Source: Halichondria panicea (Eukaryota; Porifera; Demospongiae; Suberitida; Halichondriidae). From it: 64,000 bases of DNA. Made by a program: the position numbers and the translations under genes. Location: assembly GCF_963675165.1 (NCBI RefSeq), contig NC_087386.1, forward strand, positions 6,268,066-6,332,065, written 5' to 3'. Positions within the stretch are counted from its first letter, which is position 1, and each line of letters opens with the position of its first letter. Shown piece by piece: positions 866 to 58,696 of this stretch. Below the pieces are notes generated by a model, which ran no database searches, was not told the origin of the DNA, and saw only the letters and a program-made list of their open reading frames with translations.

Positions 866-2474
866 CTCTCTGGGTACATCAACATTGGCCCCAGCATCGA
901 TTAGGAGCTCCATACATTTCTGGTGACCATTAAAACTGGCTGCGTAAAGAGGGGTCTCTCCCCACTGTACATAGGAGGAAAACAATGTAAACAGCATGTT
1001 GTGGGAAATGTGTTTGTACAACAAAACCAACCTTGTTCTGAGTGTTGACTGTAGCCTTGGCTGCTAAGAGGACCCCCACTATCTCATCATGTCCATTCCT
1101 ACTGGCCCAGTAAAGAGCAGGCGAACCATCCTGTAGAGACAATATCATCAACCAACGGATATATTGGCACTGTAGACAGTATTCCCCTCACCTTGTCTGC
1201 CTGATTGGGATCAGCCCCACACTCCAGTAGCTCCAGAACCACACCCACATCACCCGTCTTACAAGCCTCCAAAAATTCCTGGGAGAAAATACACTCTCAG
1301 TAAACACACCCAAAAGATGGAATGACACAAATTGTATGTACATGTTATATACTGTTCAAGATTCTATAGCCACCCACACAGAAGTACCAGCATACAGTCG
1401 ACACTAACACTATATAAGCTGACAATACACATTTGATACCTCCACCCACTCACTCACGTACCATCCTGGGGTGCTGTAGACACAGCTTTCTGAGTGAGAC
1501 AATCACTTCGTCAACTGATGGTCTCTGTTGAGGTCGGTCATGGAGGCAGCTAACAACAAGAGGATAAAGAGCGTGTTTCTGCCCCATTTTGTCACCATGG
1601 ACAGCAGTGCTTCGACGCATGAGCTCCTCTTTTCCTCGGATAGACTTGAAATAGTTTCGAATACTATGAGGTACGTTCTTGACTTTAGGGAAATCACCGG
1701 TAACAGTGTGAATGATGAGATGACCGAATGAGAAGATGTCCAGCTTGGTAGTGTAAGTGGGTGGCTCCACATGACACTCGGGAGGCATGTAGGTTGGATT
1801 TCCTGGGACGTTTGTCAGAACATGAGTCAATCTCTCCAGATCAACATACCTGTAAATGAACATTAGGTTTTACATTTCTGCCTTTGTTTTCCCATATTAC
1901 TCATTTTTGTTTCTAACTCATTAAAACAAACATTTTCCTTTGTTGCAAAAACAACAACATACCTGGAGACACCCAGGTCTCCGATCTTGGCAGTGAGGTC
2001 CTCAGTGAGCAGGATGTTGGGAGCAGTGAGGTCACGATGGATGAGGGGAGGGGTCAGAGAGTGGAGATAGTGCAGTCCCTTGGATACATCATACAGGATA
2101 TGGATTCTAGTGGCGATATTCGTGTCTCGATGGGTTTCAACGAAATCAGCCAAGTCGGAATGAAGCCTCTCCATTATTAGACTGATGTCGTTCTTATCGC
2201 GGCCGTAATGGACTCCAACGAAACCAACTATGTTGGGGTGATGTAAAACACTCAGAATATGACATTCATTTCTGAACTTTGTCACAATGCTCTCCCTCTG
2301 TCCAAGGGATCGCTCTTGGAGCAATATGGAGTGAAGCTTCTTAGCAATGCAGTGTCTTCCATTCACCGTCACTCTAAAGACACAGCCATAAGCCCCTGAG
2401 CCAGCTTTGTTCTCCTCTAGATTCAATCCTTCCACTTGGACCACCAGAGCATCAAGGTCACTTCTTGTAGCCAT
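866..2474 (-). CDS. Kinase-ankyrin gene A, 3'-truncated
   Basis: Cytosolic protein kinase followed by ankyrin repeats; no signal peptide or membrane segment is seen. Exons: 1963-2474 and 1462-1849 (kinase, 300 residues), then ankyrin exons 1192-1278, 1032-1130 and 866-964, all joining in phase. The start is the ATG of MATRSDLDAL. Kinase landmarks: glycine loop G25-G30 (GSGAYG), lysine K45/K46 in IAKK, alpha-C glutamate near E70, HRD at 146-148 with N153, DLG at 166-168 in place of DFG, and PPE at 193-195. All catalytic residues are present, so activity is likely. The HRDLTAPN loop and overall look suggest the tyrosine-kinase-like group (inference). Unlike B-E, no further ankyrin exons or terminal exon lie to the left: near position 107 the sequence jumps to the region that follows the terminal exon in other units. 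A is therefore probably truncated, or rearranged in the assembly. Confidence 0.8.
1850..1962 (-). other. Kinase intron flanked by direct repeats (gene A)
   Basis: Intron of 113 bp, phase 2, between GVSR and YVDL just after the DLG motif. On the minus strand the 11-mer CAGGTATGTTG spans the 5' splice site and recurs exactly across the 3' splice site. Gene B has one uninterrupted copy (CAGGTATGTGG) and no intron. This resembles a target-site duplication that supplies both splice sites. Confidence 0.75.
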
Positions 2475-7335: not shown

Positions 7336-10300
7336 GAACACAGTGGACCACTCCCCCTATACTGCACTAGTGTGCGTGTTGTCTCCCCCCACACAGTGGA
7401 CCTCCCCCCTATACTGCATTAGCGTGTGTGTATTGTCTCCCCCCACACAGTGGACAACCCCCCCTATACTGCACTAGTGTGCGTGTTGTCTCCCCCCACA
7501 CAGTGGACCACCCCCCTATACTGCACTAGTGTGTGTTGTCTCCCCCCACACAGTGGACCACCCCCCTATACTGCATTAGTGTGTGTGTTGTCTCCCCCCA
7601 CACAGTGGACCACCCCCCTATACTGTATTAGTGTGTGTGTTGTCTCCCCCCACACAGTGGACCACCCCCCTATACTGTATTAGTGTGTGTGTTGTCTCCC
7701 CCCACACAGTGGACCACCCCCCTATACTGTATTAGTGTGTGTGTTGCCTCCCCCCACACAGTGGACCACCCCCTATACTGCATTAGTGTGTGTGTTGTCT
7801 CCCCCCACACAGTGGACCACCCCCCTATACTGCATTAGTGTGTGTATTGTCTCCCCCCACACAGTGGACCACCCCCCTCTGCTGCATTAGTGTGTGTGTT
7901 GTCTCCCCCCACACAGTGGACCACCCCCCTATACTGCACTAGTGTGTGTGTTGTCTCCCCCCACACACAGTGGACCACCCCCTATACTGCATTAGTGTGT
8001 GTATTGTCTCCCCCCACACAGTGGACCACCCCCCTCTGCTGCATTAGTGTGTGTGTTGTCTCCCCCCACACAGTGGACCACCCCCCTATACTGCACTAGT
8101 GTGTGTGTTGTCTCCCCCCACACACAGTGGACCACCCCCTATACTGCATTAGTGTGTGTATTGTCTCCCCCCACACAGTGGACCACCCCCTATACTGCAT
8201 TAGTGTGTGTATTGTCTCCCCCCACACAGTGGACCACCCCCCTATACTGCATTAGTGTGTGTATTGTCTCCCCCCACACAGTGGACCACCCCCCTATACT
8301 GCATTAGTGTGCGTGTTGTCTCCCCCCACACAGTGGACCACCCCCCTGTACTGCATTAGTGTGCGTATTGTCTCCCCCCACACAGTGGACCACCCCCTAT
8401 ACTGCATTAGTGTGCGTATTGTCTCCCCCCACACACAGTGGACCACCCCCCTATACTGCAATAGTGTGTGTATTGTCTCCCCCCACACACAGTGGACCAC
8501 CCCCCTATACTGCAATAGTGTGTGTATTGTCTCCCCCCACACACAGTGGACCACCCCCCTATACTGCATTAGTGTGTGTATTGTCTCCCCCCACACACAG
8601 TGGACCACCCCCCTATACTGCAATAGTGTGTGTGTTGTCTCCCCCCACACAGTGGACCACCCCCCTATACTGCATTAGTGTGTGTGTTGTCTCCCCCCAC
8701 ACAGTGGACCACCCCCCTATACTGCATTAGTGTGCGTGTTGTCTCCCCCCACACAGTGGACCACCCCCTATACTGCACTAGTGTGCGTGTTGTCTCCCCC
8801 CACACAGTGGACCACCCCCCTATACTGCATTAGTGTGCGTGTTGTCTCCCCCCACACAGTGGACCACCCCCCTATACTGCATTAGTGTGTGTGTTGTCTC
8901 CCCCCACACAGTGGACCTAGTGTGCGTGTTGTCTCCCCCCACACAGTGGACCACCCCCCTATACTGCACTAGTGTGCGTGTTGTCTCCCCCCACACGGTG
9001 GACCACCCCCCCTATACTGCACTAGTGTGCGTGTTGTTTACCCCCACACAGTGGACCACCCCCCCTATACTGCACTAGTGTGCGTGTTGTTTACCCCCAC
9101 ACAGTGGACCACCCCCCCTATACTGCACTAGTGTGCGTGTTGTTTACCCCCACACAGTGGACCACCCCCCCTATACTGCACTAGTGTGCGTGTTGTTTAC
9201 CCCCACACGGTGGACCACCCCCCCTATACTGCACTAGTGTGTGTATTGTCTCCCCCCACACGGTGGACCACCCCCCCTATACTGCACTAGTGTGCGTGTT
9301 GTCTCCCCCCACACAGTGGACCACCCCCCTATACTGCACTAGTGTGCGTGTTGTCTCCCCCCACACAGTGGACCACCCCCCCTATACTGCACTAGTGTGC
9401 GTGTTGTCTCCCCCACACAGTGGACCACCCCGCTATACTGCACTAGTGTGCGTGTTGTCTCCCCCCACACAGTGGACCACCCCCCTATACTGCACTAGTG
9501 TGCGTGTTCTCTCCCCCCACACAGTGGACCACCCCCCTATACTGCACTAGTGTGCGTGTTGTCTCCCCCCACACAGTGGACCACCCCCCTATACTGCACT
9601 AGTGTGCGTGTTGTCTCCCCCCACACAGTGGACCACCCCCCTATACTGCACTAGTGTGCGTGTTGTCTCCCCCCACACAGTGGACCACCCCCCCTATACT
9701 GCACTAGTGTGCGTGTTGTCTCCCCCCACACAGTGGACCACCCCCCTATACTGCACTAGTGTGCGTGTTGTCTCCCCCCACACAGTGGACCATCCCCCTA
9801 TACTGCACTAGTGTGCGTGTTGTCTCCCCCCACACAGTGGACCACCCCCCCTATACTGCACTAGTGTGCGTGTTGTCTCCCCCCACACAGTGGACCACCC
9901 CCCTATACTGCACTAGTGTGCGTGTTGTCTCCCCCACACAGTGGACCACCCCCCTATACTGCACTAGTGTGCGTGTTGTCTCCCCCCACACAGTGGACCA
10001 CCCCCCTTATACTGCACTAGTGTGCGTGTTGTCTCCCCCCACACAGTGGACCACCCCCTATACTGCACTAGTGTGCGTGTTGTCTCCCCCCACACAGTGG
10101 ACCACCCCCCCTATACTGCACTAGTGTGCGTGTTGTCTCCCCTCACACAGTGGACCACCCCCCTATACTGCACTAGTGTGCGTGTTGTCTCCCCCCACAC
10201 AGTGGACCACCCCCCCTATACTGCACTAGTGTGCGTGTTGTCTCCCCCCACACAGTGGACCACCCCCCTATACTGCACTAGTGTGCGTGTTGTCTCCCCC

Positions 10301-10402
10301 CACACAGTGGACCACCCCCCTATACTGCACTAGTGTGCGTGTTGTCTCCCCCCACACAGTGGACCACCCCCCCTATACTGCACTAGTGTGCGTGTTGTCT
10401 CC
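7336..10402. repeat. 52-bp minisatellite, array 1
   Basis: About 59 head-to-tail units of 52 bp. Each contains TGCAYTAGTG, a GT-rich tract, GTCTCCCCCCACACAG and TGGACCACCCCCCTATAC. The left part uses GCATTAG with GTGTGTGT; the right part is homogenised to GCACTAG with GTGCGTGTT. In sister units the array lies in the intron after COLGALT exon 4, and here it follows the exon-4 copy directly. At its right end it is fused to an ACBD6-like exon. Since 52 is not divisible by 3, all frames cycle through the same peptides. Confidence 0.95.
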
Positions 10403-11145: not shown

Positions 11146-14100
11146 TCAGTGTAGTAGTTCACACACTTGAGTGTGTCCATTCCTACTAGCCACATCATAG
11201 GCAGTACGTCCGTCCTGTATAGTGGGCATGTGAGCAGTTAGTGATGAAGGGAAATAAGGAATTTTAACAGTGGACAGCAATACATAACCAGTAGAACACT
11301 GTTGCCATGGTGGTGAATAATTGTTACCTTAATTAAGGTTACTAATAAATAGACAGTAGTAATTTTAGCGTATCAGATTTTTAAGAGTACGAATTTTGGC
11401 AGAAAATTCATTAGCACAATAATTATTTGTCAAAATGGTCAGATCATTTGTCATTGTGGTCTTGGAGAAAAGGAATGTATTTGGTGTTGCAACAGTCAGG
11501 TCAAAGTCCAGTCCAGTCCAGTCGGCCAGTCCACTGATAAAGGACAGCCAGTTTTAAGCTTGAAAGGAAAGTTTTGAGTCAGATACAGGGGCTAGCTTGC
11601 TATAGCTTACTCTCAAGAGAACTTTTTTGAAATTCATAATGCGTTATAATAATAATTATTAGCGAGGTCTTAATTTAGCGTTAATAACAAATTTGCTAAA
11701 ATTAGTACTCGTTTATAATACATACATGTACCATATAGCGGGTAATATTCGTGGGGTAAATAATTTGTTTAGTCTCATTGCCTGCACTGCATTCATACGT
11801 TCCGGTAAGCCATACCTACGTTAAAATTTCGTGGAGGTCAGCTAGCTTGCCCTCGAAAATAACGAATTTTTTGCCCCACGAAAATTACCGGCTATACGGT
11901 AGTAACATTAAGGTATACCTAACTACTGTACTATATACTAGAATGCATCAAACATACGCCAACTTTGCGAGGGTTGATCAATTCGCAACAATAAAATTGC
12001 AAAACCTAAGTAAATACACACGATCCTTGCCAGAACGCAATAGTGATCGCAAAGGGTCAATTTTTCTGCTGACTTGGTTAATTCGCAAAGGTTTTTCATC
12101 CGCAAAATATTCTAGTAATACGTATAGTGATTACAATCATGCAGCGTGACTCACATTAGTCTTTTTGTTGACGTCAGCTTTGGCCTCCAACAACATTCTA
12201 ACAACTCCACAGTGACCATTCTGACTGGCCATGTGCAATGCCGTCCAACCATCCTGTAAAAATCCAAATATTTTTAAACAAACAAACAGCTAGTAATAAT
12301 AGCTGGCAATGTGCAATGCTGTCCCTTCTCAACAAGACCAAATAATTATTAATACAGATAATTATAAGCAGTAAATCTCACCTTGTCTTGAATTTCAACT
12401 TGAGCATTCGCAGCAATCAACAATTCCACTGCCCTCACATGACCATTCTGAGCAGCTGCCCACAATGCAGTGGCTCCATCCTGTACGGAGTCAAGATAGT
12501 GTGAGCAGGTGAACCATCACTTATCACAGACCCACTCATTATACAATATCACATGACTATCTACACTAATGTCAGGGGATACACTAGCCTCGATCCCAGG
12601 CCGCACTTCCTCTTTACAGGAATAATATCCATGCGCAAACAGTCAGTAGCAGGCCTTATCATGGCTGAGGTTCAGTGACGGAAACAGTTAGATCTAGGTC
12701 TAAACTATACTACCCTTGAGCCTTAGTCAGAGTTATTGTGCATTACATTGGAATGCAATTAAAAGAGAGATCACGAGATGCGTGTCGTACCTCGGTACAC
12801 CAACTACCAGTGCTCTCTACACAAACATGACTAGCTCTGGTGCCTAATGGACCAAGTCAACAGAACATGGGGAGGCTCTGTGGCTAGTGGCCTCTGAGAT
12901 GTGTGTACAGCTACTTACACTCACCTCTTCGGGTACATCAACATTGGCCCCAGCATCGATTAGGAGCTCCATACATTTCTGGTGACCACTGAAACTGGCT
13001 GTCCAAAGAGGGGTTGCTCCCGACTGTACATAGGAGGAAAACAATGTAAACAGCATGTTGTGGGAAATGTGTACAACAAAACTAACAACAGTCAAGATAT
13101 AGTACAGATCCACTCATTACACAATATCACTCATACAATATCACATGACTATCTACACTAATGTCAGGGCAGAGGAGGTACGACATTGTTTTTTAATTGA
13201 ATATTCCATTGTGATGACGTTTACGGGTTCAGCGACAGATCTATGTCTAAACTATACTACTCTTGCGATTTTATTCACTGAAATTCGCGAAAATTTCCCG
13301 CTATACGGTATAGAAAGTTAAATGGAAGGTTGCCATCTGATAGCATTCTGATAGCTACCCTTAGCCTGCTATGTTAACAAAATACTCATAACTAGCAACA
13401 GTGTGGATGACAATCGTCTGAAAGGATCGAGTGAAGGCTGACAGAAAATAGCTGTACAACAAGCCAATAGTTCTGTCTCTAGCTAGCTAGCTATATGTAT
13501 ATGACTTTCAAATTTTATTCTTGGTCAGGATATTTTTTCACTGATAAAAATAGGGATTTACAGGAATAATATCCATGCGCAAGCAGTCAGTAGCAGGCCT
13601 TATCTTTAATTTAATGGCTGAGGTTCAGCGACGGAAACTGTTACCTCTAGGTCTAAACTATACTACCCTTGAGCCTTAGTCAAAGTTATTGTGCATTACA
13701 TTGGAATGCAATTAAAAGAGAGATCACGAGATGCGTGTCGTACCTCGGTACACCAACTACCAGTGCTCTCTACACAAACATGACTAGCTCTGGTGTCTAA
13801 TGGACCAGGTCAACAGAACATGGGGAGGCTCTGTGGCTAGTGGCCTCTGAGATGTGTGTACAGCTACTTACACTCACCTCTTTGGGTACATCAACATTGG
13901 CCCCAGCATCGATTAGGAGCTCCATACATTTCTGGTGACCATTGAAACTGGCTGCGTAAAGAGGGGTCTCTCCCGACTGTACATAGGAGGAAAACGATGT
14001 AAACAGCATGTTGTGGGAAATGTGTTTGTACAACAAAACCAACCTTGGTCTGAGTGTTGACTGTAGCCTTGGCTGCTAAGAGGACCCTCACTATCTCATC

Positions 14101-17100: not shown

Positions 17101-19486
17101 ATCAAGACTTCCACTGCCCTCACATGACCATTGTAAGCAGCTACAATCAACGCAGTGGCTCCATCCTGTACAGAGAGTAAAGATAGTACAGATCCACTCA
17201 TTACACAATATCACTCATACAATATCACATGACTATCTACACTATGTCAGGGCAGAGGAGGTACGACACTTTTCTTAATTGAATATTCCATTGTGATGAT
17301 GTTTACGGGTTCAGCGACGGAAACAGTTAGATCTAGGTCTAAACTATACTACCCTTGAGCCTTAGTCACAGAATAACAGAGTTATTTTGGGGAACAAAAA
17401 CAACGTAAAAATTGTTTGAATAGATCACGAGATGTGTGTCGTACCTCGGTACACCAACTACCAGTGCTTTTCTACACAAACATGACTAGCTCTGGTGTCT
17501 AATGGACCAGGTCAACAGAACATGGAGAGGCTCTGTGGCTAGTGGCCTCTGAGATGTGTGTATATAGTAGCCTCGATTCTTACTACTAAGAATATGTTCC
17601 GTAATATTTTATCTCCATACTGAGTTCTGTGAAGCTGTATCTATTGCTTAGAAGGCTTGAACACTAGTTTGGAGGCTCTCATCTACGTCTACGATGGTCC
17701 TATAGCCAGGTTGTCTTCGTAAGAAGCAGCCAAGAGGCACCATACACTTCCCATAGCCTGTACTGATCTAAGCTAAGATATCCTGACCATACAGCCTTCA
17801 TAGAGGTCGATGAGACCCTCTTCTGGCTTCAGACTAGTGTGAAAGCCTTCTGAAACAACGCAATAGAAAGCTAAACTGATGTACATAGTTAGAAAATAGA
17901 TGAGAGAAAGAAAAGAGGCGATTCCCCAGACTCTGTAGAATAATAAGTACCAGGCCATACTTTAATCCGCCTGGAATCAAGGCTATGTGTATATAGCTAC
18001 TTACACTCACCTCATTGGGTACATCAACATTGGCCCCAGCATCGATTAGGAGCTCCATACACTTCTGGTGACCATTGAAACTGGCTATCCAAAGAGGGGT
18101 CTCTCTCGACTGTACATAGGAGGAAAACAATGTAAACAGAATGTTGTGGGAAATGTGTTTGTACAACAAAACCAACCTTGATCTGAGTGTTGACTGTAGC
18201 CTTGGCTGCTAAGAGGACCCTCACTCTCATCATGTCCCTTGTCACTGGCCCAGTAAAGAGCACCATCCTGTAGAGACAATATCATCAACCAACGGACATA
18301 TTGGCACTGTAGACAGTATTCCCCTCACCTTATCTGCCTGGTTGGGATCAGCCCCACACTCCAGTAGCTCCAGAACCACACCCACATTATCCGTCTTACA
18401 AGCCTCCAGCAATTCCTGGGAGAAAATACACTCTCAGTAAACATACCCAAAAGATGGAATGACACAAATTGTATGTACATGTTATATACTGTTCAAGATT
18501 CTATAGCCACCCACACAGAAGTACCAGCATACAGTCGACACTAACACTATATAAGCTGACAATGCACATTTGATACCTCCACCCACTCACTCACGTACCA
18601 TCCTGGGGTGCTGTAGACACAGCTTTCTGAGTGAGACAATCACTTCGTCAACTGATGGTCTCTGTTGAGGTCGGTCATGGAGGCAGCTAACAACAAGAGG
18701 ATAAAGAGCGTGTTTCTGCCCCATTTTGTCACCATGGACAGCAGTGCTTCGACGCATGAGCTCCTCCTTTCCTCCGATAGACTTGAAATAGTTTCGAATA
18801 CTATGAGGTACAATCTTGACTTTAGGGAAATCACCGATAACAGTGTGAATGATGAGATGACCGAATGAGAAGATGTCCAGCTTGGTAGTGTAGGTTGGCT
18901 CTTCTCCATGACACTCGGGAGGCATGTAGGTTGGATTTCCCGGGACACTTGTCAGAACATGAGTTAATCTGTCCAGGTCCACATACCTGGAGACACCCAG
19001 GTCTCCGATCTTGGCAGTGAGGTCCTCAGTGAGCAGGATGTTGGGAGCAGTGAGGTCACGATGGATGAGGGGAGGGGTCAGACAGTGGAGATAGTGAAGG
19101 CCCTTGGATACATCATACAGGATATGGATTCTAGTGGCGATATTCGTGTCTCGATGGGTTTCAACAAAATTAGCCAAGTCAGAATGAAGCCTCTCCATTA
19201 TTAGACTGATGTCGTTCTTATCGCGGCCGTAATGGACGCCAACAAAGTTGACTATGTTGGGGTGATCCAGACCGCTCAGAATACGACATTCATTGCAGAA
19301 ATTTGTTAAAATCCTCTCTTGATCTTGTAGGAGCAATATAGTGTGGATTTTCTTAGCAATGCAGTGTCTTCCATTCACCGTCACTCTAAAGACACAGCCA
19401 TAAGCCCCATGACCAGCTTGGTTCTCCTGTAGACCCAATCCTTCCACCTGGACCACCAGAGCATCAAGGTCACTTCTTGTAGCCAT
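11146..19486 (-). CDS. Kinase-ankyrin gene B, intronless kinase
   Basis: The kinase lies in one exon (18599-19486, 296 residues), starting at the ATG of MATRSDLDAL. It has HGAYG, IAKK, HRDLTAPN, DLG and PPE. Ankyrin exons follow: 18329-18415, 18177-18267, 18011-18109, 17067-17165, 14880-14975, 14044-14142, 13878-13976, 12925-13023, 12382-12480 and 12155-12253. The terminal exon 11146-11214 ends ELLH-stop. The intron present in A, C and D is absent exactly at AG|G of the GVSR-YVD site. Exon 18177-18267 is 91 nt, not 99: a 6-bp and a 2-bp deletion shift the frame inside GHDEIV. Because all neighbouring exons are phase 0, skipping it would restore the frame. If it is included, the protein is kinase plus one repeat. 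Four ankyrin types recur in order, so the tail grew by duplication of multi-exon modules. Confidence 0.8.
11729..11901. mobile_element. Hairpin MITE ending in CTATACGGTA (unit B)
   Basis: 173 bp. The left end reads TACCATATAGCGGGTAAT and the right end is its near inverse, ATTACCGGCTATACGGTA. Arms of about 35 bp flank a short AT-rich centre. It lies in the intron before the terminal exon of gene B. An equivalent copy is at 46720-46892, so the insertion predates that unit duplication. Confidence 0.65.
14237..14803. mobile_element. TAGCCTCG inverted-repeat element (unit B, plus)
   Basis: About 567 bp, from TAGCCTCGTTCCCAGGCCG to CGGCCTAGGAACGAGACTA. It lies in the intron between ankyrin exons 14880 and 14044. 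It is the same family as 326-840 in the opposite orientation. It carries a 63-codon plus-strand open frame (MGNPLLFPLS...), but this reflects recent duplication rather than a gene. Confidence 0.7.
15130..15727. mobile_element. TTAA-flanked MITE, piggyBac-like (unit B)
   Basis: 598 bp flanked by TTAA (15126-15129 and 15728-15731). The terminal inverted repeats are GGTTACGGTATA and TATACTGTAACC. Near the left end is a short hairpin, CCCACGC with GCGTGGG. The related segment near 52450 lacks the element and shows a TTTA-like empty site. Copies lie at 32851, 50506 and 62420. Assignment to piggyBac rests on the TTAA target only. Confidence 0.65.
15712..15939 (-). other. 75-codon open frame of unknown meaning
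   Basis: The minus-strand frame includes GDMLATNVESTAPFIYIWTS and SWRNTIASHRDLEQRTELAK. Its translation is identical in units B, C (33434-33661) and D (51089-51316). The last residues and the stop are supplied by the TTAA-flanked MITE. The copy at 52449-52670 has an internal stop and the one near 63030-63185 has deletions. It starts at GTG just after CCCCAG, so it may be an old exon. I do not recognise it. Confidence 0.35.
15976..16171. mobile_element. TA-flanked MITE, mariner-like, unit B only
   Basis: 196 bp with ends CCTTAAGGTTGGTATTATT and AATAATACCGACCTTAAGG, flanked by TA on each side. Units C, D and E read GTCTAAACTATAC uninterrupted at this point, which is the empty site. The insertion therefore occurred in unit B after duplication. 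TA target use fits Tc1/mariner elements. Confidence 0.8.
16294..16336 (-). pseudogene. Remnant of an ankyrin exon (unit B)
   Basis: After a CAG it reads DNQTALLCM and then a stop. It matches the first third of the DNQTALFVASRNGH exon type at 14044-14142 with a small insertion, and the match ends at AGCCAGTA. The same remnant occurs near 33821, 51468, 53393 and 63352. It marks the place of a lost repeat in the four-exon module. Confidence 0.5.
16386..17014. mobile_element. hAT-like MITE with 8-9 bp target duplication (unit B)
   Basis: 629 bp. The ends GGTTAGTGTAAAAGCTGGAA and the inverse TTCCAGCTTTTACACCAACC form inverted repeats of 23 bp or more. GCAACTGGA flanks both sides. The paralogous intron near 14178-14200 reads CAGCAACTGGACCAGC without the element and gives the empty site. 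The length of the duplication fits hAT elements. No transposase is present. Confidence 0.75.
17568..17984. mobile_element. TAGCCTCG element, internally deleted (unit B)
   Basis: Same family and orientation as 326-840. The first 11 bp are kept, then about 95 bp are missing (TAGCCTCGATT joins CTTACTACTAAG). The right terminal repeat ends GGAATCAAGGCTA. Confidence 0.65.
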
Positions 19487-21891: not shown

Positions 21892-23432
21892 ATTGTTTCG
21901 TTCTCCTACTTTCTTTGGGATTGCCGGAGGAGTGACTGACAGTGACTGTGTGTACTCTGTCCTGCCCCTCTACCATTCCCACAGCCTCGCACACGGTGGA
22001 GGGCCTATGATCTACACAGGAGCCACTCTCGTCATTAGGAAAAAGTTCTCGGCCAAACAGTTTTGGACCAATAGTGCAAAGTACAACTGCACTGTGAGTT
22101 GGCTAATTGACTGGGGCTGACCCACTTACATTAATGTCTTAGATAGACAGTACGTGTTGTTATGCTTTCAGCTATTCTTGCCTTTGCTTTCACTACACAA
22201 CTTGAGCTATGTATCACTGTGTACGGGTGACATCACTTCATTTATATCCACTTACTTCCCCACTGTGCAGATGGTGTGCACGATTGGGGAGTTGAATCGC
22301 TACGTGTTGGCCCAACCCCCTCAACCCACTGACACACAACACAAAGTACGTCTAATCATAACTGCAGGGATCAGAAAATAGCTGTGGCTGGAATTCCAGA
22401 AACGATTTGAAGTGGATCACATTATCGAGTTTATGGCTCTACTGAGGGCAACTTTGGTATTATCAACATTGACAACAAGCCAGAATCTGTTGGAGCTCTC
22501 CCACTGTTTGTACCATCCCTTCAAAACGTCACTATCCTGAAGCTTCATCCGGAGACTGGCGATTACCTAAGAGATGAGAATGGTTTCTGTGTCGAGTGTG
22601 GTGTGAGCGAACCTGGTGAAACTGTTTGTGAGATTACTAAAGTCTCTCCCTTCTACGGATATCGAAACAAAGAAAACTCGGTAAAAAAATTCTTAGGAAT
22701 TGTTTCAAAGCAGGAGATGCTTTTTTTTCAGAACTGGAGACATTATGAGCATTGACGAGGAAGGTTGGGTATATTTCTGTGATCGATCTGGGGACACGTT
22801 TCGTTGGAAGGGGGAGAACGTATCCACGGCAGAGGTTGAGACTCGTATTGCTACTGTGTTGAAGTTGATGGTGTACGGTGTTGAGGTGCCTGGTAACGAG
22901 GGGCGTGCTGGAATGGCTGCCATTGTGGGGACTCTGGTCATGCAGGGGAGCACTCTGGCTGGATGAGACACAGAGGAGGCACTAACTGACGACAAGACGA
23001 CATTGTTCGACTGGTGTAAGGAGGGGAATGAAAAGAAATTACGATCTCTACTCTCTGACACCAATGTCAATCAAACTGACCAAGAGGTGAGTAGACAGGT
23101 TAATAATGTTATAATATAGTTCATTCCTGTAATTATGTGCCAAAATAGTTATATAGTTGATATACACATTCTGAAAAGACTCCAATTATAAGAAAATTGC
23201 TGTATAATTTGAACTAACTGAGCGTGTTTAATGTTTGAGACTAATGCTAATTGTAGAATGCTGTACACATACTTGCACATGTATAATTATAGAGATGCAT
23301 TTCATGATACAGGGGATGGTGTTCTTCACTGGGCCTGTGACCGTGGCAACCTGAACATGGTGAAACTACTTGTGAAGAGGGGAGCAGATGTTAATATTGA
23401 GGACACAGACAATCAGACACCTCTTCATTATG
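21892..23432 (+). pseudogene. SLC27-like/ACBD6-like chimera, copy 2
   Basis: Exon 21892-22093 encodes AGGVTDSDCVYSVLPLYHSH and IRKKFSAKQFW. Exon 22271-23086 runs through IGELNRYVLAQPP, NKPESVGALPLF and the SLC27 hallmark [20 protein letters not shown]. After MQGSTLAG and a TGA, it continues in the same frame into ACBD6-like TLFDWCKEGNEKKLRSLLSD. Exon 23313-23432 adds HWACDRGNLNMVKLLVKRGA. Defects: GAG to TAG in RKELW, a 1-bp deletion after IIEF, a poly-A/poly-T slip near 22690-22725, the TGA at the fusion, and a 1-bp frame error before HWACDRG. The SLC27 C-terminal region of roughly 90 residues is replaced by ACBD6 sequence. Not functional as read. Confidence 0.75.
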
Positions 23433-24738: not shown

Positions 24739-27013
24739 ATTAGTGTGTGTATTGTCTCCACCCACACAGTGGACCACCCCCCCTATACTGCATTAGTGTG
24801 TGTATTGTCTCCCCCCACACAGTGGACCACCCCCCTATACTGCATTAGTGTGTGTGTTGTCTCCCCCCACACAGTGGACCACCCCCCTATACTGCATTAG
24901 TGTGCGTGTTGTCTCCCCCCACACAGTGGACCACCCCCCTATACTGCATTAGTGTGTGTATTGTCTCCCCCCCACACAGTGGACCACCCCCTATACTGCA
25001 TTAGTGTGTGTGTTGTCTCCCCCCACACAGTGGACCACCCCCCTATACTGCATTAGTGTGTGTCTTGTCTCCCCCCACACAGTGGACCACCCCCCTATAC
25101 TGCATTAGTGTGTGTGTTGTCTCCCCCCACACGGTAGACCACCCCCTATACTGCATTAGTGTGTGTGTTGTCCCCCCCTCACACAGTGGACCACCCCCCT
25201 ATACTGCATTAGTGTGTGTATTGTCTCCCCCCACACGGTAGACCACCCCCTATACTGCATTAGTGTGTGTGTTGTCCCCCCCTCACACGGTGGACCACCC
25301 CCCTATACTGCATTAGTGTGCGTGTTGTCTCCCCCCACACGGTGGACTACCCCCCTATACTGCATTAGTGTGTGTGTTGTCTCCCCCCACACGGTGGGCC
25401 ACCCCCCTATACTGCATTAGTGTGTGTGTTGTCTCCCCCCACACGGTGGACCACCCCCCTATACTGCACTAGTGTGTGTGTTGTCTCCCCCCACACGGTG
25501 GACCACCCCCCTATACTGCATTAGTGTGCGTGTTGTCTCCCCCCACACGGTGGACTACCCCCCTATACTGCATTAGTGTGTGTGTTGTCTCCCCCCACAC
25601 GGTGGACCACCCCCCTATACTGCATTAGTGTGTGTGTTGTCTCCCCCCACACGGTGGACCACCCCCGTATACTGCATTAGTGTGTGTGTTGTCTCCCCCC
25701 ACACGGTGGGCCACCCCCCTACACTGCATTAGTGTGTGTGTTGTCTCCCCCCCACACGGTGGACCACCCCCCTACACTGCATTAGTGTGTGTGTTGTCTC
25801 CCCCCACACGGTGGACCATCCCCCTATACTGCACTAGTGTGTGTGTTGTCTCCCCCCACACAGTGGACCACCCCCCTATACTGCATTAGTGTACGTGTTG
25901 TCTCCCCCCACACAGTGGACCACCCCCCTGTACTGCACTAGTGTGTGTGTTGTCTCCCCCCACACAGTGGACCACCCCCTATACTGCATTAGTGTGTGTA
26001 TTGTCTCCCCCCACACAGTGGACCACCCCCCTATACTGCATTAGTGTGTGCGTTGTCTCCCCCCACACAGTGGACCACCCCCCTATACTGCATTAGTGTG
26101 TGCGTTGTCTCCCCCCACACAGTGGACCACCCCCCTATACTGCATTCGTGTGTGTGTGTTGTCTCCCCCCACACAGTGGACCACCCCCCTATACTGCATT
26201 AGTGTGTGTATTGTCTCCCCCCACACAGTGGACCCCCCCCTATACTGCATTAGTGTGTGTGTTGTCTCCCCCCACACAGTGGACCACCCCCCTATACTGC
26301 ATTAGTGTGTGTGTTGTCTCCCCCCACACAGTGGACCACCCCCCTATACTGCATTAGTGTGTGTGTTGTCTCCCCCCACACAGTGGACCACCCCCCTATA
26401 CTGCATTAGTGTGTGTGTGTTGTCTCCCCCCACACAGTGGACCCCCCCCTATACTGCATTAGTGTGTGTGTGTTGTCTCCCCCCACACAGTGGACCACCC
26501 CCCTATACTGCATTAGTGTGTGCGTTGTCTCCCCCCACACAGTGGACCACCCCCCTATACTGCATTCGTGTGTGTGTGTTGTCTCCCCCCACACAGTGGA
26601 CCCCCCCCTATACTGCATTAGTGTGTGTTGTCTCCCCCCACACAGTGGACCACCCCCCTATACTGCATTAGTGTGTGTGTTGTCTCCCCCCACACAGTGG
26701 ACCACCCCCCTATACTGCATTAGTGTGTGTGTTGTCTCCCCCCACACAGTGGACCACCCCCCTATACTGCATTAGTGTGTGTATTGTCTCCCCCCACACA
26801 GTGGACCCCCCCCTATACTGCATTAGTGTGTGTATTGTCTCCCCCCACACAGTGGACCACCCCCCTATACTGCATTAGTGTGTGTGTTGTCTCCCCCCAC
26901 ACAGTGGACCACCCCCCTATACTGCATTAGTGTGTGTTGTCTCCCCCCACACAGTGGACCACCCCCCTATACTGCATTAGTGTGTGTATTGTCTCCCCCC
27001 ACACAGTAGACCA
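24739..27013. repeat. 52-bp minisatellite, array 2
   Basis: About 44 units of the same 52-bp sequence, mostly the GCATTAG/GTGTGTGT type. A subset between about 25130 and 25830 carries CACACGG instead of CACACAG. It sits between COLGALT exon 4 and exon 5, so its intronic position is clear. Unit length varies by 2 bp through the GT tract and by 1 bp through the C runs. Confidence 0.95.
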
Positions 27014-33900: not shown

Positions 33901-36900
33901 GCAACTAGAGGGTTAGTGTAAAAGCTGGAATGCAGATATGGAACGGAACATGTAGCTGGCTGTAATCATCACATGACACCTGTTATTGGAAAGAGGATCA
34001 ACAACTTACACACACTGTTGCACAGTGGTAGATATTGAGATAACAGTTTCATTGTTGAGAGTATAAATGTGGAATTTGCTGACTCCACAACCCAATGTGT
34101 GTGGAAATCAATGGCAAAAGGCTTGGTCAGTGTGTCTCTTCAACACGCACAAATCGTTTAAAGTTTCACCAAGGGCCAAAACTTTGCAGGCATGCAGATA
34201 GAAGAAAGGTATAGCTTTGGAGTGTTCTGTATAGCTATAGACTTCACACTCCACCTTACTTTGGGCACAACATAATTACTTCGCTAAGTCTATAGACACG
34301 TATAATTATGTGTATTTGTAATGTTCAATGTTGCTACTATAATTATACTCAGTCTACTTTTTTTACATAATAGTCTTCTAAAATTAGCTTTGTGTCTATA
34401 AAAGGATTCTGTAGCACTTTTTAGAAGTATTTAAGTCATACTATACTAAAAAAATACAGAGCACCATCAGCAGCTCTCTTTTTAGTCATTCCATTTTCCG
34501 TTCTATTCCGCATTCCAGCTTTACACTAACCCGCAACTGGACCAGCTAATCCACTACTCAATCCACTCTAGTAAATCTCACCTTATTTTGAACGTCAATT
34601 CCAGCCTTGGCAGCAATCAAGACTTCCACTGCCCTCACATGACCATTCTGAGCAGCTACCCACAATGCTGTGGTTCCAGTTGTCTGTACGGAGTCAAGAT
34701 AGTACAGATCCACTCATTACACAATATCAATACCAGTGTTCTCTACACAAACATGACTAGCTCTGGTGTCTAATGGACCAGGTCAACAGAACATGGGGAG
34801 GCTCTGTGGCTAGTGGCCTCTGAGATGTGTGTATAGTAGCCTCAATTCCAGGCCGCATTAAAATACGGCCTGGTACCTTCAGAATATGGGTAATCGTACT
34901 ACGAACATAAAACCTTAGTACCCGTAATTTAGTCCCTTTACTAAGAATATGTTCTGTAATATTTTATCTCCATACTGAGTTCCGTGAAGCTGTATCTATT
35001 GCTTAGAAGGCTTGAACACTAGTTTGGAGGCTCTCATCTACGTCTACGATGGTCCTATAGCCAGGTTGTCTTTGCAAGAAGCAGTCAAGAGGCACCATAC
35101 ACTTCCCATAGCCTGTACAGATCTAAGCGAAGACATCCTGACCATACAGCCGTCATAGAGGTGGATGAGAGCCTCTTCTAGCTTCAGACTAGTGTGAAAG
35201 CCTTTTGGAACAACGCAATAGAGAGCTAAGCTAATGTACATAGATAGAAAGAAAGAAAAGAAGGGATTCCCCAGATTCTGGAGAATAAACTATCACGTGC
35301 TCACTATCACCATGCAATAAGTACCAGGCCATACTTTAATCGGCCTGGAATCGAGGCTATGTGTATATAGCTACTTACACTCACCTCTTTGGGTACATCA
35401 ACATAGGCCCCAGCATCGATTAGGAGCTCCATACATTTCTGGTGACCATCGAAACTGGTTGTCCAAAGAGGGGTTTCTCCCCACTGTACATAGGAGGAAA
35501 CATTGTAAACAGCATGTTGTGGGAAATGTGTTTGTACAACAAAACCAACCTTGTTCTGAGTGTTGACTGTAGCCTTGGCTGCTAAGAGGACCCTCACTAT
35601 CTCATCATGTCCCTTGTCACTGGCCCAGTAAAGAGCAGTCCGACCATCCTGTAGAGGCAATATCATCAACCAACGGACATATTGGCACTGTAGACAGTAT
35701 TCCCCTTACCTTGTCTGCCTGGTTGGGATCAGCCCCACACTCCAGTAGCTCCAGAACCACACCCACATCACCCGTCTTACAAGCTTCCAGAAATTCCTGG
35801 GAGAAAATACACTCTCAGTAAACACACCCAAAAGATGGAATGACACAAATTGTATGTACATGTTATATACTGTTCAAGATTCTATAGCCACCCACACAGA
35901 AGTACCAGCATACAGTCGACACTAACACTATATAAGCTGACAATGCACATTTGATACCTCCACCCACTCACTCACGTACCATTCTGGGGTGCTGTAGACA
36001 CAGCTTTCTGAGTGAGACAATCACTTCGTCAACTGATGGTCTCTTTTGAGGTCGGTCATGGAGGCAGCTAACAACAAGAGGATAAAGAGCGTGTTTCTCC
36101 CCCATTTTGTCACCATGGACAGCAGTGCTTCGACGCATGAGCTCCTCCTTTCCTCTGATAGAGTGGAAATAGTTGCGAACACTTTGAGGTACGTTCTTGA
36201 CTTTAGGGAAATCACCGATAACAGTGTGAATGATGAGATGACCGAATGAGAAGATGTCCAGCTTGGTAGTGTAGGTGGGTGGCTCCACATGACACTCGGG
36301 AGGCATGTAACTTGGATTTCCCGGGATATTCGTCAGAACATGAGTCAATCTCTCCAGATCAACATACCTGTAAATGAACATTAGTTTTTACATATCTGCC
36401 TTTGTTTTCCCACATTAAGTAATTCTCATTTTGTCTCTAAAAAACAACATTCTCCTTTGTTGCAAACAAACAAACAAACATACCTGGAGACACCCAGGTC
36501 TCCGATCTTGGCAGTGAGGTCCTCAGTGAGCAGGATGTTGGGAGCAGTGAGGTCACGATGGATGAGGGGAGGGGTCAGACAGTGGAGGTAGTGAAGGCCC
36601 TTGGATACATCATACAGGATATGGATTCTAGTGGCGATATTCGTATCTCGATGGGTTTCAACAAAATTGGCCAAGTCGGTATGAAGCCTCTCCATTATTA
36701 GACTGATGTCGTTCTTATCGCGGCCGTAATTGACTCCAACGAAACCTACTATGTTGGGGTGACGTAAAACACTCAGAATATGACATTCATTTCTGAACTT
36801 TGTCACAATGCTCTCCCTCTGTCCAAGGGATTGCTCTTGGAGCAATATGTGGTGTAGTTTCTTGGCAATGCAGTCTCTTCCATTCACGGTCACTCTAAAG

Positions 36901-39010: not shown

Positions 39011-42000
39011 GCTCCCCCCACACAGTGGACCACCCCCTTACACTGCATTAGTGTGTGTGTTGTCTCCCCCCACACAGTGGACCACCCCCCTATACTGCAT
39101 TAGTGTGTGTATTGTCTCCCCCCCACACAGTGGACCACCCCCCCTATACTGCATTAGTGTGTGTGTTGTCTCCCCCCACACAGTGGACCACCCCCCTATA
39201 CTGCATTAGTGTGTGTTGTCTCCCCCCACACAGTAGACCACCCCCCTATACTGCATTAGTGTGTGTGTTGTGTCCCCCCACACAGTGGACCTAGTGTGCG
39301 TGTTGTCTCCCCCCACACAGTGGACCACCCCCCTATACTGCATTAGTGTGTGTATTGTCTCCCCCCACACAGTGGACCACCCCCTGCATTAGTGTGTGTA
39401 TTTTCTCCCCCCACACAGTGGACCACCCCCCTATACTGCATTAGTGTGTGTATTGTCTCCCCCACACAGTGGACCACCCCCCTATACTGCATTAGTGTGT
39501 GTGTTGTCTCCCCCCACACAGTGGACCACCCCCTACACTGCATTAGTGTGTGTGTTGTCTCCCCCCACACAGTGGACCACCCCCCTATACTGCATTAGTG
39601 TGTGTGTTGTCTCCCCCCACACAGTGGACCACCCCCCTATACTGCACTAGTGTGTGTATTGTCTCCCCCCACACAGTGAATCACCCCCCTATACTGCATT
39701 AGTGTGTGTGTTGTCTCCCCCCACACAGTGGACCACCCCCCTATACTGCACTAGTGTGTGTATTGTCTCCCCCCACACAGTGGATCACCCCCCTATACTG
39801 CATTAGTGTGTGTGTTGTCTCCCCCCACACAGTGGACCACCCCCCTATACTGCATTAGTGTGCGTATTGTCTCCCCCCAAACAGTGGACCACCCCCCTAT
39901 ACTGCATTAGTGTGTGTGTTGTCTCCCCCCACACAGTGGACCACCCCCCTATACTGCATTAGTGTGCGTGTTGTCTCCCCCCACACAGTGGACCACCCCC
40001 CTATACTGCATTAGTGTGCGTGTTGTCTCCCCCCACACAGTGGACCACCCCCCTATACTGCACTAGTGTGTGTATTGTCTCCCCCCACACAGTGGACCAC
40101 CCACCCTATACTGCATTAGTGTGTGTGTTGTCTCCCCCCCACACAGTGGACCACCCCCCTATACTGCATTAGTGTGTGTGTTGTCTCCCCCCACACAGTG
40201 GACCACCCCCCTATACTGCACTAGTGTGTGTATTGTCTCCCCCCACACAGTGGATCACCCCCCTATACTGCATTAGTGTGTGTATTGTCTCCCCCCACAC
40301 AGTGGACCACCCCCCTATACTGCATTAGTGTGCGTGTGTTGTCTCCCCCCACACAGTGGACCACCCCCCTATACTGCATTAGTGTGCGTGTTGTCTCCCC
40401 CCACACAGTGGACCACCCCCCTATACTGCACTAGTGTGCGTGTTGTCTCCCCCCACACAGTGGACCACCCCCCTATACTGCACTAGTGTGTGTGTTGTCT
40501 CCCCCCACACAGTGGACCACCCCCCTATACTGCATTAGTGTGTGTGTTGTCTCCCCCCACACAGTGGACCACCCCCCTATACTGCATTAGTGTGTGTGTT
40601 GTCTCCCCCCACACAGTGGACCACCCCCCTATACTGCACTAGTGTGTGTGTTGTCTCCCCCCACACAGTGGATCACCCCCCTATACTGCATTAGTGTGTG
40701 TGTTGTCTCCCCCCACACAGTGGACCACCCCCCTATACTGCATTAGTGTGTGTGTTGTCTCCCCCCACACAGTGGACCACCCCCCTATACTGCATTAGTG
40801 TGCGTGTTGTCTCCCCCCACACAGTGGACCACCCCCCTATACTGCATTAGTGTGTGTGTTGTCTCCCCCCACACAGTGGACCACCCCCCTATACTGCATT
40901 AGTGTGTGTGTTGTCTCCCCCCACACAGTGGACCACCCCCCTATACTGCATTAGTGTGTGTGTTGTCTCCCCCCACACAGTGGACCACCCCCCTATACTG
41001 CACTAGTGTGTGTGTTGTCTCCCCCCACACAGTGGACCACCCCCCTATACTGCACTAGTGTGTGTGTTGTCTCCCCCCACACAGTGGACCACCCCCCTAT
41101 ACTGCACTAGTGTGTGTGTTGTCTCCCCCCACACAGTGGACCACCCCCTATACTGCATTAGTGTGTGTGTTGTCTCCCCCCACACAGTGGACCACCCCCC
41201 TATACTGCATTAGTGTGTGTATTGTCTCCCCCCACACAGTGGACCACCCCCCTATACTGCACTAGTGTGTGTATTGTCTCCCCCCACACAGTGGACCACC
41301 CCCCTATACTGCACTAGTGTGTGTATTGTCTCCCCCCACACAGTGGACCACCCCCCTATACTGCATTAGTGTGTGTTGTCTCCCCCCACACAGTGGACCA
41401 CCCCCCTATACTGCACTAGTGTGTGTGTGTTGTCTCCCCCCACACAGTGGACCACCCCCCCTATACTGCATTAGTGTGTGTGTGTTGTCTCCCCCTACAC
41501 AGTGGACCACCCCCCTATACTGCATTAGTGCGTGTTGTCTCCCCCCCACACAGTGGACCACCCCCCTATACTGCATTAGTGTGTGTGTTGTCTCCCCCCA
41601 CACAGTGGACCACCCCCCTATACTGCATTAGTGTGTGTTGTCTCCCCCCACACAGTGGACCACCCCCCTATACTGCATTAGTGTGTGTTGTCTCTCCCCA
41701 CACAGTGGACCACCCCCCTATACTGCATTAGTGTGTGTGTGTTGTCTCCCCCTACACAGTGGACCACCCCCCTATACTGCATTAGTGCGTGTTGTCTCCC
41801 CCCCACACAGTGGACCACCCCCCTATACTGCATTAGTGTGTGTGTGTTGTCTCCCCCCACACAGTGGACCACCCCCCTATACTGCATTAGTGCGTGTTGT
41901 CTCCCCCCCACACAGTGGACCACCCCCCTATACTGCATTAGTGTGTGTGTGTTGTCTCCCCCCACACAGTGGACCACCCCCTTATACTGCATTAGTGTGT

Positions 42001-55100: not shown

Positions 55101-56644
55101 TGTGTAAAGAGGGGTCTCTCCCCACTGTACATAGGAGGAAAACAATGTAAACAGCATGTTGTGGGAAATGTATTTATACAACAAAACCAACCTTGTTCTG
55201 AGTGTTGACTGTAGCCTTGGCTGCTAAGAGGACCCTCACTATCTCATCATGTCCATTGTATAACTAGCCCAGTGAAGAGCAGTTACACCATCCTGTAGAG
55301 ACAACATCATCAACCAACGGACATATTGGCACTGTAGACAGTATTCCCCTCACCTTGTCTGCCTGGTTGGGATCAGCCCCACACTCCAGTAGCTCCAGAA
55401 CCACACCCACATTGCCCGTCTTACAAGCATCTAGAAATGCCTGGGAGAAAATACACTATCAGTAAACACACCCAAAAGATGGAATGACACAAATTGTATG
55501 TACATGTTATATACTGTTCAAGATTCTATAGCCACCCACACAGAAGTACCAGCATACAGTCGACACTAACACTATATAAGCTGACAATGCACATTTGATA
55601 CCTCCACCCACTCACTCACGTACCATCCTGGGGTGCTGTAGACACAGCTTTCTGAGTGAGACAATCACTTCGTCAACTGACGGTCTCTGTTGAGGTCGGT
55701 CATGGAGGCAGCTAACAACAAGAGGATAAAGAGCGTGTTTCTGCCCCATTTTGTCACCATGAACAGCAGTGCTTCGACGCATGAGCTCCTCTTTTCCTCT
55801 GATAGACTTGAAATAGTTTCGAATACTATGAGGTACGTTCTTGACTTTAGGGAAATCACCGATAACAGTGTGAATGATGAGATGACCGAATGAGAAGATG
55901 TCCAGCTTGGTAGTGTAGGTGGGCGGCTCCACATGACACTCGGGAGGCATGTAGGTTGGATTTCCTGGGACGTTTGTCAGAACATGAGTCAATCTCTCCA
56001 GATCAACATACCTGCAAATGAACAGTAGGTTTTACATATCTGCCTTTGTTTTCCCACATTAAGTAAATCTCCTTTTTGTCTCTAACTCATAAAAAAAAAA
56101 CATTTTTCTTTGTTGCAAAAACAACAACATACCTGGACACACCCAGGTCTCCGATCTTGGCAGTGAGGTCCTCAGTGAGCAAGATGTTGGGAGCAGTGAG
56201 GTCACGATGGATGAGGGGAGGGGTCAGAGAGTGGAGATAGCGAAGGCCTTTGGATACATCATACAGGATATGGATTCTAGTGGCGATATTCGTGTCTCGA
56301 TGGGTTTCAAGGAATTTAGCCAAGTCGGAATGAAGCCTCTCCATTATTAGACTGATGTCGTTCTTATTGCGGCCGTAATGGACTCCAACGAAACCGACAA
56401 TGTTGGGGTGATCCAAACCGCTCAGAATATGACACTCATGACGGAAATTTGTTAAAATCCTCTCCCTCTGTCCAAGGGATTGCTCTTGGAGCAATATGTG
56501 GTGAAGCTTCTTAGCAATGCAGTCTCTTCCATTCACCGTCACTCTAAAGACACAGCCATAAGCCCCATGACCAGCTTGGTTCTCCTCTAGACCCAATCCT
56601 TCCACCTGAACCACCAGAGCATCAAGGTCACTTCTTGTAGCCAT
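46133..56644 (-). CDS. Kinase-ankyrin gene D
   Basis: Kinase exons 56133-56644 and 55624-56011 (300 residues; GHGAYG, IAKK, HRDLTAPN, DLG, PPE). Ankyrin exons: 55354-55440, 55192-55292, 55026-55124, 53986-54084, 52227-52325, 50253-50351, 49420-49518, 48513-48611, 47356-47454 and 47129-47227. The terminal exon is 46133-46201. Exon 55192-55292 is 101 nt; a 2-bp gain in the SRNGH stretch shifts the frame to a nearby stop. The exon at 49347-49360 is only the first few codons of an SGETPL-type repeat, cut by a deletion. Compared with B and C, the DGATALWVAAQNGH exon and its intron are duplicated (52227 and 53986). If the bad exon is skipped, ten ankyrin exons remain in frame. Confidence 0.8.
46720..46892. 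mobile_element. Hairpin MITE ending in CTATACGGTA (unit D)
   Basis: 173 bp, orthologous to 11729-11901. Confidence 0.65.
47652..47858. mobile_element. TACCGTATAGCG MITE (unit D)
   Basis: 207 bp, nearly identical to 28946-29152 and at the same intron position. Confidence 0.7.
48895..49342. other. Unit D-specific intron segment
   Basis: About 450 bp not found in B, C or E. It contains an (AC)n tract of about 20 bp near 49275 and TTGCGCATGCGCACC near 49310. At its right end it abuts a truncated ankyrin exon (49347-49360), so it replaced most of that exon. No gene seen. Confidence 0.5.
49613..50176. mobile_element. TAGCCTCG inverted-repeat element (unit D, plus)
   Basis: Orthologous to 14237-14803 and 31955-32521. 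Confidence 0.65.
50506..51104. mobile_element. TTAA-flanked MITE (unit D)
   Basis: 599 bp between TTAA sites, orthologous to 15130-15727. Confidence 0.65.
51567..52174. mobile_element. hAT-like MITE (unit D, first)
   Basis: Orthologous to 16386-17014, between GCAACTGGA flanks. Confidence 0.65.
52935..53220. mobile_element. TAGCCTCG element, right end lost (unit D)
   Basis: Starts TAGCCTCGATTGCAGGCCGC and is cut at 53220, where CCTGTAC joins TAACTGAATAGGG. The join marks one edge of the local duplication in gene D. Confidence 0.6.
53482..53934. mobile_element. hAT-like MITE, internally deleted (unit D, second)
   Basis: Keeps both flanking GCAACTGGA copies but has lost about 170 bp after GATTAGTGTAAAA. 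It accompanies the duplicated ankyrin exon at 53986. Confidence 0.6.
54488..55000. mobile_element. TAGCCTCG inverted-repeat element (unit D, minus)
   Basis: 513 bp, orthologous to 326-840 and 34837-35359. Confidence 0.65.
56012..56132 (-). other. Kinase intron flanked by direct repeats (gene D)
   Basis: 121 bp. CAGGTATGTTG spans both splice junctions, as in gene A. The interior contains a poly-T tract (minus strand) from an A-run at 56089-56100. Confidence 0.75.
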
Positions 56645-57195: not shown

Positions 57196-58696
57196 ATTGT
57201 TTCGTTCTCCTACTTTCTTTGTGATTGCCGGAGGAGTGACTGACAGTGACTGTGTGTACTCTGTCCCCTCTACCATTCCCACGGTCTCACACACAGTGGA
57301 GGGCCTATGATCTACACAGGAGCCACTCTCGTCATTAGGAAAAAGTTCTCTGCCAAACACTTTTGTACCGATAGTGCAAAGTACAACTGCACTGTGAGTT
57401 GGCTAATTGACTGGGGCTGACCCACTTACATAGTACGTGTTGTTATGCTTTCAGCTATTCTTGCCTTTGCTTTCACTACACAACTTGAGCTATGTATCAC
57501 TGTGTACGGGTGACATCACTTCATTTATATCCACTTACTCCCCCACTGTGCAGATGGTGTGCACGATTGGGGAGTTGAATCGCTACGTTTTGGCCCAACC
57601 CCCTCAACCCACTGACACACAACACAAAGTACGTCTAATCATCACTGCAGGACTCAGAAAAGAGCTGTGGCTGGAGTTCCAGAAACTAATTGAAGTGGAT
57701 CACATTATCGAGTTTTATACCTCCACTGAGGGCAACTTTGGTATCATCAACATTGCCAGGATCTGTTGGAGCTCTCCCACTGTTTGTACCGTCCCTTCAA
57801 AACGTCACTATCTTGAAGCTTCATCCGGAGACTGGCGATTACCTAAGAGATGAGAATGGTTTCTGTGTCGAGTGTGGTGTGAGCGAACCTACTAAAGTCT
57901 CTCCCTTCTACGGATATCGAAACAAAGAGAACTCAGCAAAAAAAATTCTTAGGAATTGTTTCAAAGCAGGAGATGCTTTTTTCAGAACTGGAGACATGCG
58001 CATTGACGAGGAAGGTTGGGTGTATTTGTGTGATCGGTCTGGGGACACGTTTCGTTGGAAGGGGGAGAACGTATCCACGGCAGAGGTTGAGACTCGTATT
58101 GCTACTGTGTTGAAGTTGACGGATGTGGTGGTGTACGGTGTTGAGGTGCCTGGTAACGAGGGGCGTACTGGAATGGCTGCCATTGTGGGGACTCTGGTCA
58201 TGCAGGGAAGCACTCTGGCTGGATGAGACACAGAGGAGGCACTAACTGACGACAAGAAGACAATGTTCGACTAGTGTAAGGAGGGGAATGAAAAGAAATT
58301 ACGATCTCTACTCTCTGACACCAATGTCAATCAAACTGACCAAGAGGTGAGTAGACAGGTTAATAATGTTATAATATAGTTCATTCCTGTAATTATGTGC
58401 CAAAATAGTTATATAGTTGATATACACATTCTGAAAAGACTCTCCAATTATAAGAAAATTGCTGTATAATTTGAACTAACTGAGCGTGTTGAATGTTTGA
58501 GACTAATGCTAATTGTAGAATGCTGTACACATACTTGCACATGTATAATTATAGAGATGCATTTCATGATACAGGGGATGGGTCTTCTTCACTGGGCCTG
58601 TGACCGTGGCAACCTGAACATGGTGAAACTACTTGTGAAGAGGGGAGCAGATGTTAATATTGAGGACACAGACAATCAGACACCCTCTTCATTATG
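57196..58696 (+). pseudogene. SLC27-like/ACBD6-like chimera, copy 4
   Basis: Exon 57196-57393 has a 4-bp deletion before YHSHG. Exon 57554-58346 reads IGELNRYVLAQPP, LRKELWLEFQKLIEVDHI and EFYTSTEGNFGIINI. An 8-bp deletion then shifts the frame; the hallmark [20 protein letters not shown] follows, then MQGSTLAG and the same TGA as copy 2. The fused ACBD6-like part has a second stop, TAG in place of the tryptophan codon of FDWC. Exon 58575-58696 starts in frame (GMGLLHWACDRGNLNMVKLL) but gains a C in CACCCTC. A 21-nt in-frame deletion after GVSEP distinguishes it from copy 2. It is a non-functional relic of the same fusion. Confidence 0.75.

Follow-up and report, generated by a model that had tools for sequence, protein, structure and literature searches.

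A kinase intron of probable LINE origin in a gene array of the sponge Halichondria panicea

An intron shared by 18 protein kinase genes of Halichondria panicea was very probably gained by retrotransposon insertion: the 5'-truncated tail of a LINE-type element would have entered a kinase exon in antisense, and duplication and gene conversion within the gene array would then have brought the intron to its present distribution. The direct support comes from the homology of the interior to a LINE end, its orientation, the position of the tail, the direct repeat at the splice sites, the intronless outgroups in this genome and the mosaic structure of the exons. The window analysed is a stretch of 64,000 nucleotides (C10:6268066-6332065); the genome searched comprised 131 Mb on 39 contigs.

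The intron, its flanking repeat and its probable splicing

The window contains four minus-strand protein kinase genes, A to D (Pkinase, E 7.1e-37 for gene B), three of which carry the intron (Table 1). In A and D the 11-mer CAGGTATGTTG lies across both splice sites. Its reverse complement CAACATACCTG occurs in the window only at 1842, 1955, 36360, 56004 and 56125, with two copies each in A and D and one in C; gene C has a shorter exact repeat at its splice sites, of 10 bp (CAGGTATGTT). An earlier note on this DNA had described the intron of gene A as bounded by a direct repeat, which is confirmed in A and D, and in the shorter form in C. It had also reported a single copy of the repeat, near 18986, and no intron in gene B; this was borne out as well, since a 318-aa ORF runs straight across the site, uninterrupted, with a single CAGGTATGTGG.

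Table 1. Coordinates of the kinase intron, its direct repeats and the empty site in the window
Feature	Gene	Position	Strand	Length
Intron, probably LINE-derived	A	1850..1962	-	113 bp
Direct repeat CAG/GTATGTTG, 5' copy (5' splice site)	A	1955..1965	-	
Direct repeat CAG/GTATGTTG, 3' copy (3' splice site)	A	1842..1852	-	
Kinase exon upstream of intron (ATG to junction)	A	1963..2474	-	
Kinase exon downstream of intron (matched part)	A	1453..1849	-	
Empty site CAG/GTATGTGG, one copy, no intron	B	18979..18989	-	
Kinase coding region, uninterrupted	B	18590..19486	-	
Intron, apparently same insertion	C	36368..36483	-	116 bp
Intron, apparently same insertion	D	56012..56132	-	121 bp
Direct repeat, 5' copy	D	56125..56135	-	
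Direct repeat, 3' copy	D	56004..56014	-	

Of the 18 intron-containing ("filled") copies in the genome, four have an exact repeat of 11 bp, six one of 10 bp, a single copy one of 9 bp and seven one of 6 bp. In the 6-bp class CAGGTA is followed by a C versus T mismatch, with GTACGT opposite GTATGT. Counting the kinase introns alone, a duplication at the splice sites is thus found that is exact over 9-11 bp in 11/18 and over 6 bp in 7/18. By a hand estimate with splice-consensus frequencies from general knowledge, a 10-bp exact match would span the junctions of a random intron by chance in about 3 in 100,000 cases. The direct repeat is read here as a target-site duplication.

If retained, the intron would introduce an in-frame stop in all 18 copies, and both exons stay open, which implies that the segment is probably spliced out. 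The introns are 86-123 bp long (462 bp in the copy L014) and fall into all three length classes modulo three. Pooled pN/pS among the filled genes is 0.38 for the upstream exon and 0.55 for the downstream exon, from 147 and 151 of 153 pairs, respectively, that are not independent of each other (pairs with fewer than 5 differences were excluded); single pairs reach 0.77 upstream and 1.01 downstream. The motif CTAAT is present in 17 of the 18 introns, about 13 nt before the intron end. It is found in none of the 8 LINE copies that hold the segment, which have CCGAAT or CTGAAT instead, the pattern used to find these copies having left the variable base of CTAAT open; L053, a doubtful copy also lacking CTAAT, is not counted. 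We read CTAAT as a putative branch site that improved after the insertion, and the source LINE copy may alternatively have had CTAAT already.

The window holds several other features. A long palindrome, seen by eye, lies upstream of the start of gene A (2691-2757). Between the kinase genes there are repeat arrays with similar units that are open in several frames (7999-10333, 26309-26775 and 41269-42607). A similar putative ORF (MPALHSYVPVSH...) is found in two copies 35 kb apart (11778-12149 and 46769-47089), which suggests that the window is made of repeated units. Two fragments (57437-58255 and 22705-23070) resemble by motif what we take to be an acyl-CoA synthetase or fatty acid transporter gene.

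Homology of the interior to a LINE-type retrotransposon

The interior of the intron matches the 3' untranslated region of a LINE-type element in antisense, and the match begins near the stop codon of the LINE. A genome search with the interior, as proposed in the earlier note, recovered the same 18 kinase loci as the protein search described below (in 19 rows, as one intron fell into two separate matches) and a 45-bp match on C4, and the C4 copy led to further dispersed relatives. The best local alignment of an intron (L012) with the C4 copy (L044) covers 98 columns at 77%. With the C4 copy as query, the genome search matched introns at E values as low as 1.5e-14 and also hit C2, C6 and C9; DNA and pattern searches added relatives on C3, C11, C14 and C16 and at a second place on C6. 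The pattern search gave 28 matches, with 1 for the reversed pattern used as a control. The LINE counts exclude three places with two mismatches (C4:6617050, C6:5669655 and C10:1216867) and the doubtful L053. The interior is thus homologous to a transposable element elsewhere in the genome.

Two copies, L054 and L055, show the structure of the element. On the strand opposite to that of the kinase genes, each has a retrotransposon-like ORF, an intron-like 3' untranslated region and then an A-run, of 8 in L054 and 15 in L055, and the ORF of L054 stops only a few bases from the start of the intron match. Relatives with ORF ends that are 90-96% alike have A-runs of up to 35. The first part of the L054 untranslated region is common to 6 of 14 fetched 3' ends of such relatives (best E 2.9e-10, with the search confined to these 14 sequences). 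Intron queries gave no convincing match to the same 14 3' ends (best E 0.01), and the intron would therefore stem from an older subfamily, that of L054. The link from the introns to the younger LINE copies thus appears to pass via this older subfamily.

At E values up to 1e-20, the end of the LINE ORF finds at least 149 genomic matches, with 150 of 674 candidates scored. A 978-aa relative gave a weak match to RVT_1 (E 1.5e-4; 22 bits, under Pfam's curated 29.6). The ORF end alone matched no Pfam family, and a PDB search with the LINE ORF yielded weak hits only, none of them to a reverse transcriptase. We name the element LINE-type because of its ORF, its A-tail and the weak RVT_1 match. Both an A-tail and 5'-truncated copies were found in the family. 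The repeats flanking four 5'-truncated copies are 7 bp and 6 bp long in two and absent in the other two, one of which has an uncertain 5' limit. An automatic scan for target-site duplications in 7 LINE copies with loose 5' limits found nothing longer than 7 bp, and no tail in three of them. Within the kinase gene, this tail forms a T-run, broken by about ten other bases, next to the 5' splice site.

A DNA transposon (MITE) was considered as the source and rejected: by eye, no terminal inverted repeats in the intron look convincing, and the dispersed copies are T-rich at their left ends, which points to an A-tail. The genome searches, which give lower bounds, found one kinase insertion site and the dispersed LINE copies. 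The intron had been called introner-like in the earlier note. The gain by insertion with target-site duplication is supported; the element appears to be a truncated LINE tail and was seen at one insertion site, which makes it at most a candidate member of an introner family.

The older state and the distribution of the intron

The protein of gene B was used to search the genome, giving 136 match rows with 131 of 782 first-look candidates scored, so that the counts are lower bounds. At least 18 loci have the intron (36 rows, i.e. 18 genes split at the site), all of them on C10 between 5.06 and 6.42 Mb. At least 98 rows among the matches scored cross the site unbroken: 18 on C10 and 80 on other contigs (C13 2, C17 10, C1 16, C8 2, C12 4, C16 3 and C3 43). 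An unbroken row is not always a gene: two rows on C1 adjoin. The remaining two of the 136 rows belong to one frameshifted gene without the intron, L020. L028 was counted among the unbroken rows although 24 columns are deleted at the site, and it is therefore uninformative on the intron. The site was inspected directly in 25 intronless loci, B included (from the window), and the remaining loci are known from match rows only. The statement that the intron is absent from one paralogue therefore holds within the window but not genome-wide, with 18 filled loci against 98 unbroken match rows.

A kinase tree of 43 rows (18 filled, 20 empty and 5 outgroup) was rooted on the outgroup. Its earliest C10 branch consists of the empty L020, L023 and L037, so that the intronless state, whose position in a tree of the paralogues the earlier note had left to be established, is basal. 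The intron was found neither in the 80 match rows off C10 nor in the deepest C10 branch. Within this one genome the empty site therefore appears to be ancestral, the absence of the intron being the older state. The earlier note had named an intron at this site in distant relatives, together with an interior lacking repeated relatives, as what would speak for loss; within this genome neither was found. Its proposal that the intron was gained by insertion of a short element with a target-site duplication is supported by the intronless outgroups, the homology to the LINE 3' end and the direct repeat.

The 18 copies share the same truncation, the same tail region (shortened in L013) and the same interior, and one insertion would therefore explain the intron. 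Nevertheless, the carriers do not form one clade. A topology that unites all carriers is rejected by the exon sequences (p-AU 1.9e-7 with both exons, 4.4e-10 with exon 1 and 1.4e-43 with exon 2), and the 43-row tree requires 7 changes of the filled state (bootstrap 6-8), of which starred branches alone force only 2. L015, L016 and L017 have the same intron sequence over 94 bp, whereas their exons differ at 25-31 of 506-512 sites and 15-31 of 391 sites (4-8%). In general, by contrast, the introns diverge more than the exons (median 12.8% versus 5.8% and 9.1%; 136 pairs, L014 excluded). In the downstream exon, the filled L016 and L018 agree with the empty L029 at 97-100% from a few bases past the splice site. 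The same intron is thus found in discordant exon backgrounds, and identical introns in diverged exons of carriers that are not one clade indicate that gene conversion moved or removed the intron. The suggestion of gene conversion as a rival to gain is therefore correct in that conversion acted, but it looks later than the gain and accounts for the scattered carriers.

It is possible, at somewhat below even chances, that conversion installed the LINE-tail intron in paralogues that had never been filled, and that it spread across the kinase genes of the array by recombination rather than by repeated transposition. The upstream exon of B is diverged, with at most 83% identity to any filled gene over columns 120-240, which favours a B lineage that never had the intron. 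L029 was considered as a likely secondary loss, but the comparison gave no support for this: its upstream part is mixed, its site is equally like the filled L015 and the empty L025-L027, and its downstream part is filled-like.

Two further observations concern single loci of the array. The 462-bp intron of L014 (C10:5703665-5705635) contains a second element of 337 bp without counterpart in the sister intron of L007. Its inverted ends are alike at 32/33 bases and TAA stands on both sides; presumably it is a Harbinger-type miniature element. The filled L005 and L006 (C10:5750266 and 5885408), 135 kb apart, are identical over the compared exons and the intron, by recent duplication, conversion or assembly duplication.

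Alternative origins, precedents and significance

The proposed birth of the intron would begin with an intronless kinase exon that had the protosplice site CAG/GTAYGTT. The A-tailed 3' end of a LINE (3' untranslated region and tail), 5'-truncated near its stop codon, would have landed there in antisense, probably by target-primed reverse transcription, duplicating the target. The 5' splice site GTAYGT would then have come from the upstream target copy, the CAG at the 3' splice site from the downstream one and the AT-rich intron body from the LINE part, the spliced message staying as it was before the insertion. CCGAAT or CTGAAT of the LINE would later have become CTAAT, a better candidate branch site, while the kinase array duplicated and gene conversion moved the intron between exon backgrounds or deleted it. 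In this sequence of events we infer the target-primed reverse transcription, the splicing, the use and improvement of the branch site and the direction of each conversion.

Four other origins were weighed. Capture of a LINE fragment during double-strand-break repair, with gap filling of staggered ends producing the direct repeat, is unlikely. Short direct repeats are compatible with it, and such gains have been proposed for Daphnia in the accessible text of PMC3443670, but the fragment retains the tail end of the LINE and lacks sequence on the 5' side alone, which is the form expected from target-primed insertion. It is slightly less probable still that B and its relatives precisely lost an old intron, through conversion from cDNA or recombination between the repeats. 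GTATGT is common to the exons of the B clade and the filled genes, the whole-exon tree sets the B clade beside the filled D, L007 and L014 (92/93, not starred), the last part of B is closest to filled genes (columns 720-840), and conversion is so rife that loss in single copies is conceivable. Yet neither the 80 rows on other contigs nor the deepest C10 branch has the intron, its interior is the end of a LINE, and the upstream exon of the B clade is diverged and peculiar to that clade, as expected if the lineage never held the intron. The intronless outgroups and the LINE homology speak against precise loss as the main story, which was rejected.

Transposition of an existing intron by reverse splicing, in which case the direct repeat would reflect the splice consensus only, has very little in its favour: CAG/GTATGT resembles the consensus and 7/18 repeats are short, but the dispersed relatives of the interior either adjoin retrotransposon ORFs or are T-rich at the left end, and of the three copies that hold only the LINE 3' end (L047, L049 and L050) not one has AGGT on both sides. 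Even a tandem duplication of an exon segment with AGGT, which would account for the AGGT at both splice sites, can be given hardly any weight and was rejected, because the interior of the intron matches a LINE.

Events of this kind are already known: transposon insertion at AGGT, with Doc1053 as the retrotransposon precedent, followed by intron transfer. In the transposon-insertion model, as set out in the accessible parts of PMC3443670, insertion at AGGT duplicates this motif on both sides, and splicing keeps the coding sequence, as for the kinase intron; the latter differs in being a 5'-truncated antisense LINE tail now present in 18 paralogues. AGGT sites able to act as either splice site are treated in PMC10809524. 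The Doc1053 intron of Drosophila sechellia GM26034 likewise arose by retrotransposon insertion with target-site duplications, and in the available portion of PMC3296678 it is described from one gene, with 98.4% similarity to its source and five added amino acids. The kinase intron represents an older event, without added residues, and is present through the array. Introners resemble it in that a transposable element enters an exon and splice sites may come from the target-site duplication, but their families count from 5 to more than 2,000 copies and most fit DNA transposition, according to the accessible text of PMC9860276, whereas the kinase intron was found at one site and derives from an RNA-copied element. 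In that paper "retrotransposon" is found a single time, among the references, and neither "sponge" nor "Porifera" appears. Intron transfer between paralogues by recombination, as treated in the accessible parts of PMC3443670, is common to known cases and the kinase array, which differs in that the birth of the intron is recorded too. Among publications on introners and on intron gain with LINEs, retrotransposons or sponges, in journals that were partially covered, we found no report of this case.

To our knowledge, the source of many gained introns is obscure. Here, one genome displays the source family and its orientation together with the duplicated target, the empty site and a change that later affected the likely branch site, with filled and empty copies by the tens as natural replicates. 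This suggests that the tail of an ordinary retrotransposon at a protosplice site can suffice for making an intron, and that gene conversion can afterwards carry the intron to other genes or erase it. In gene arrays, the presence of an intron should thus be used with caution, as it is not a simple tree character.
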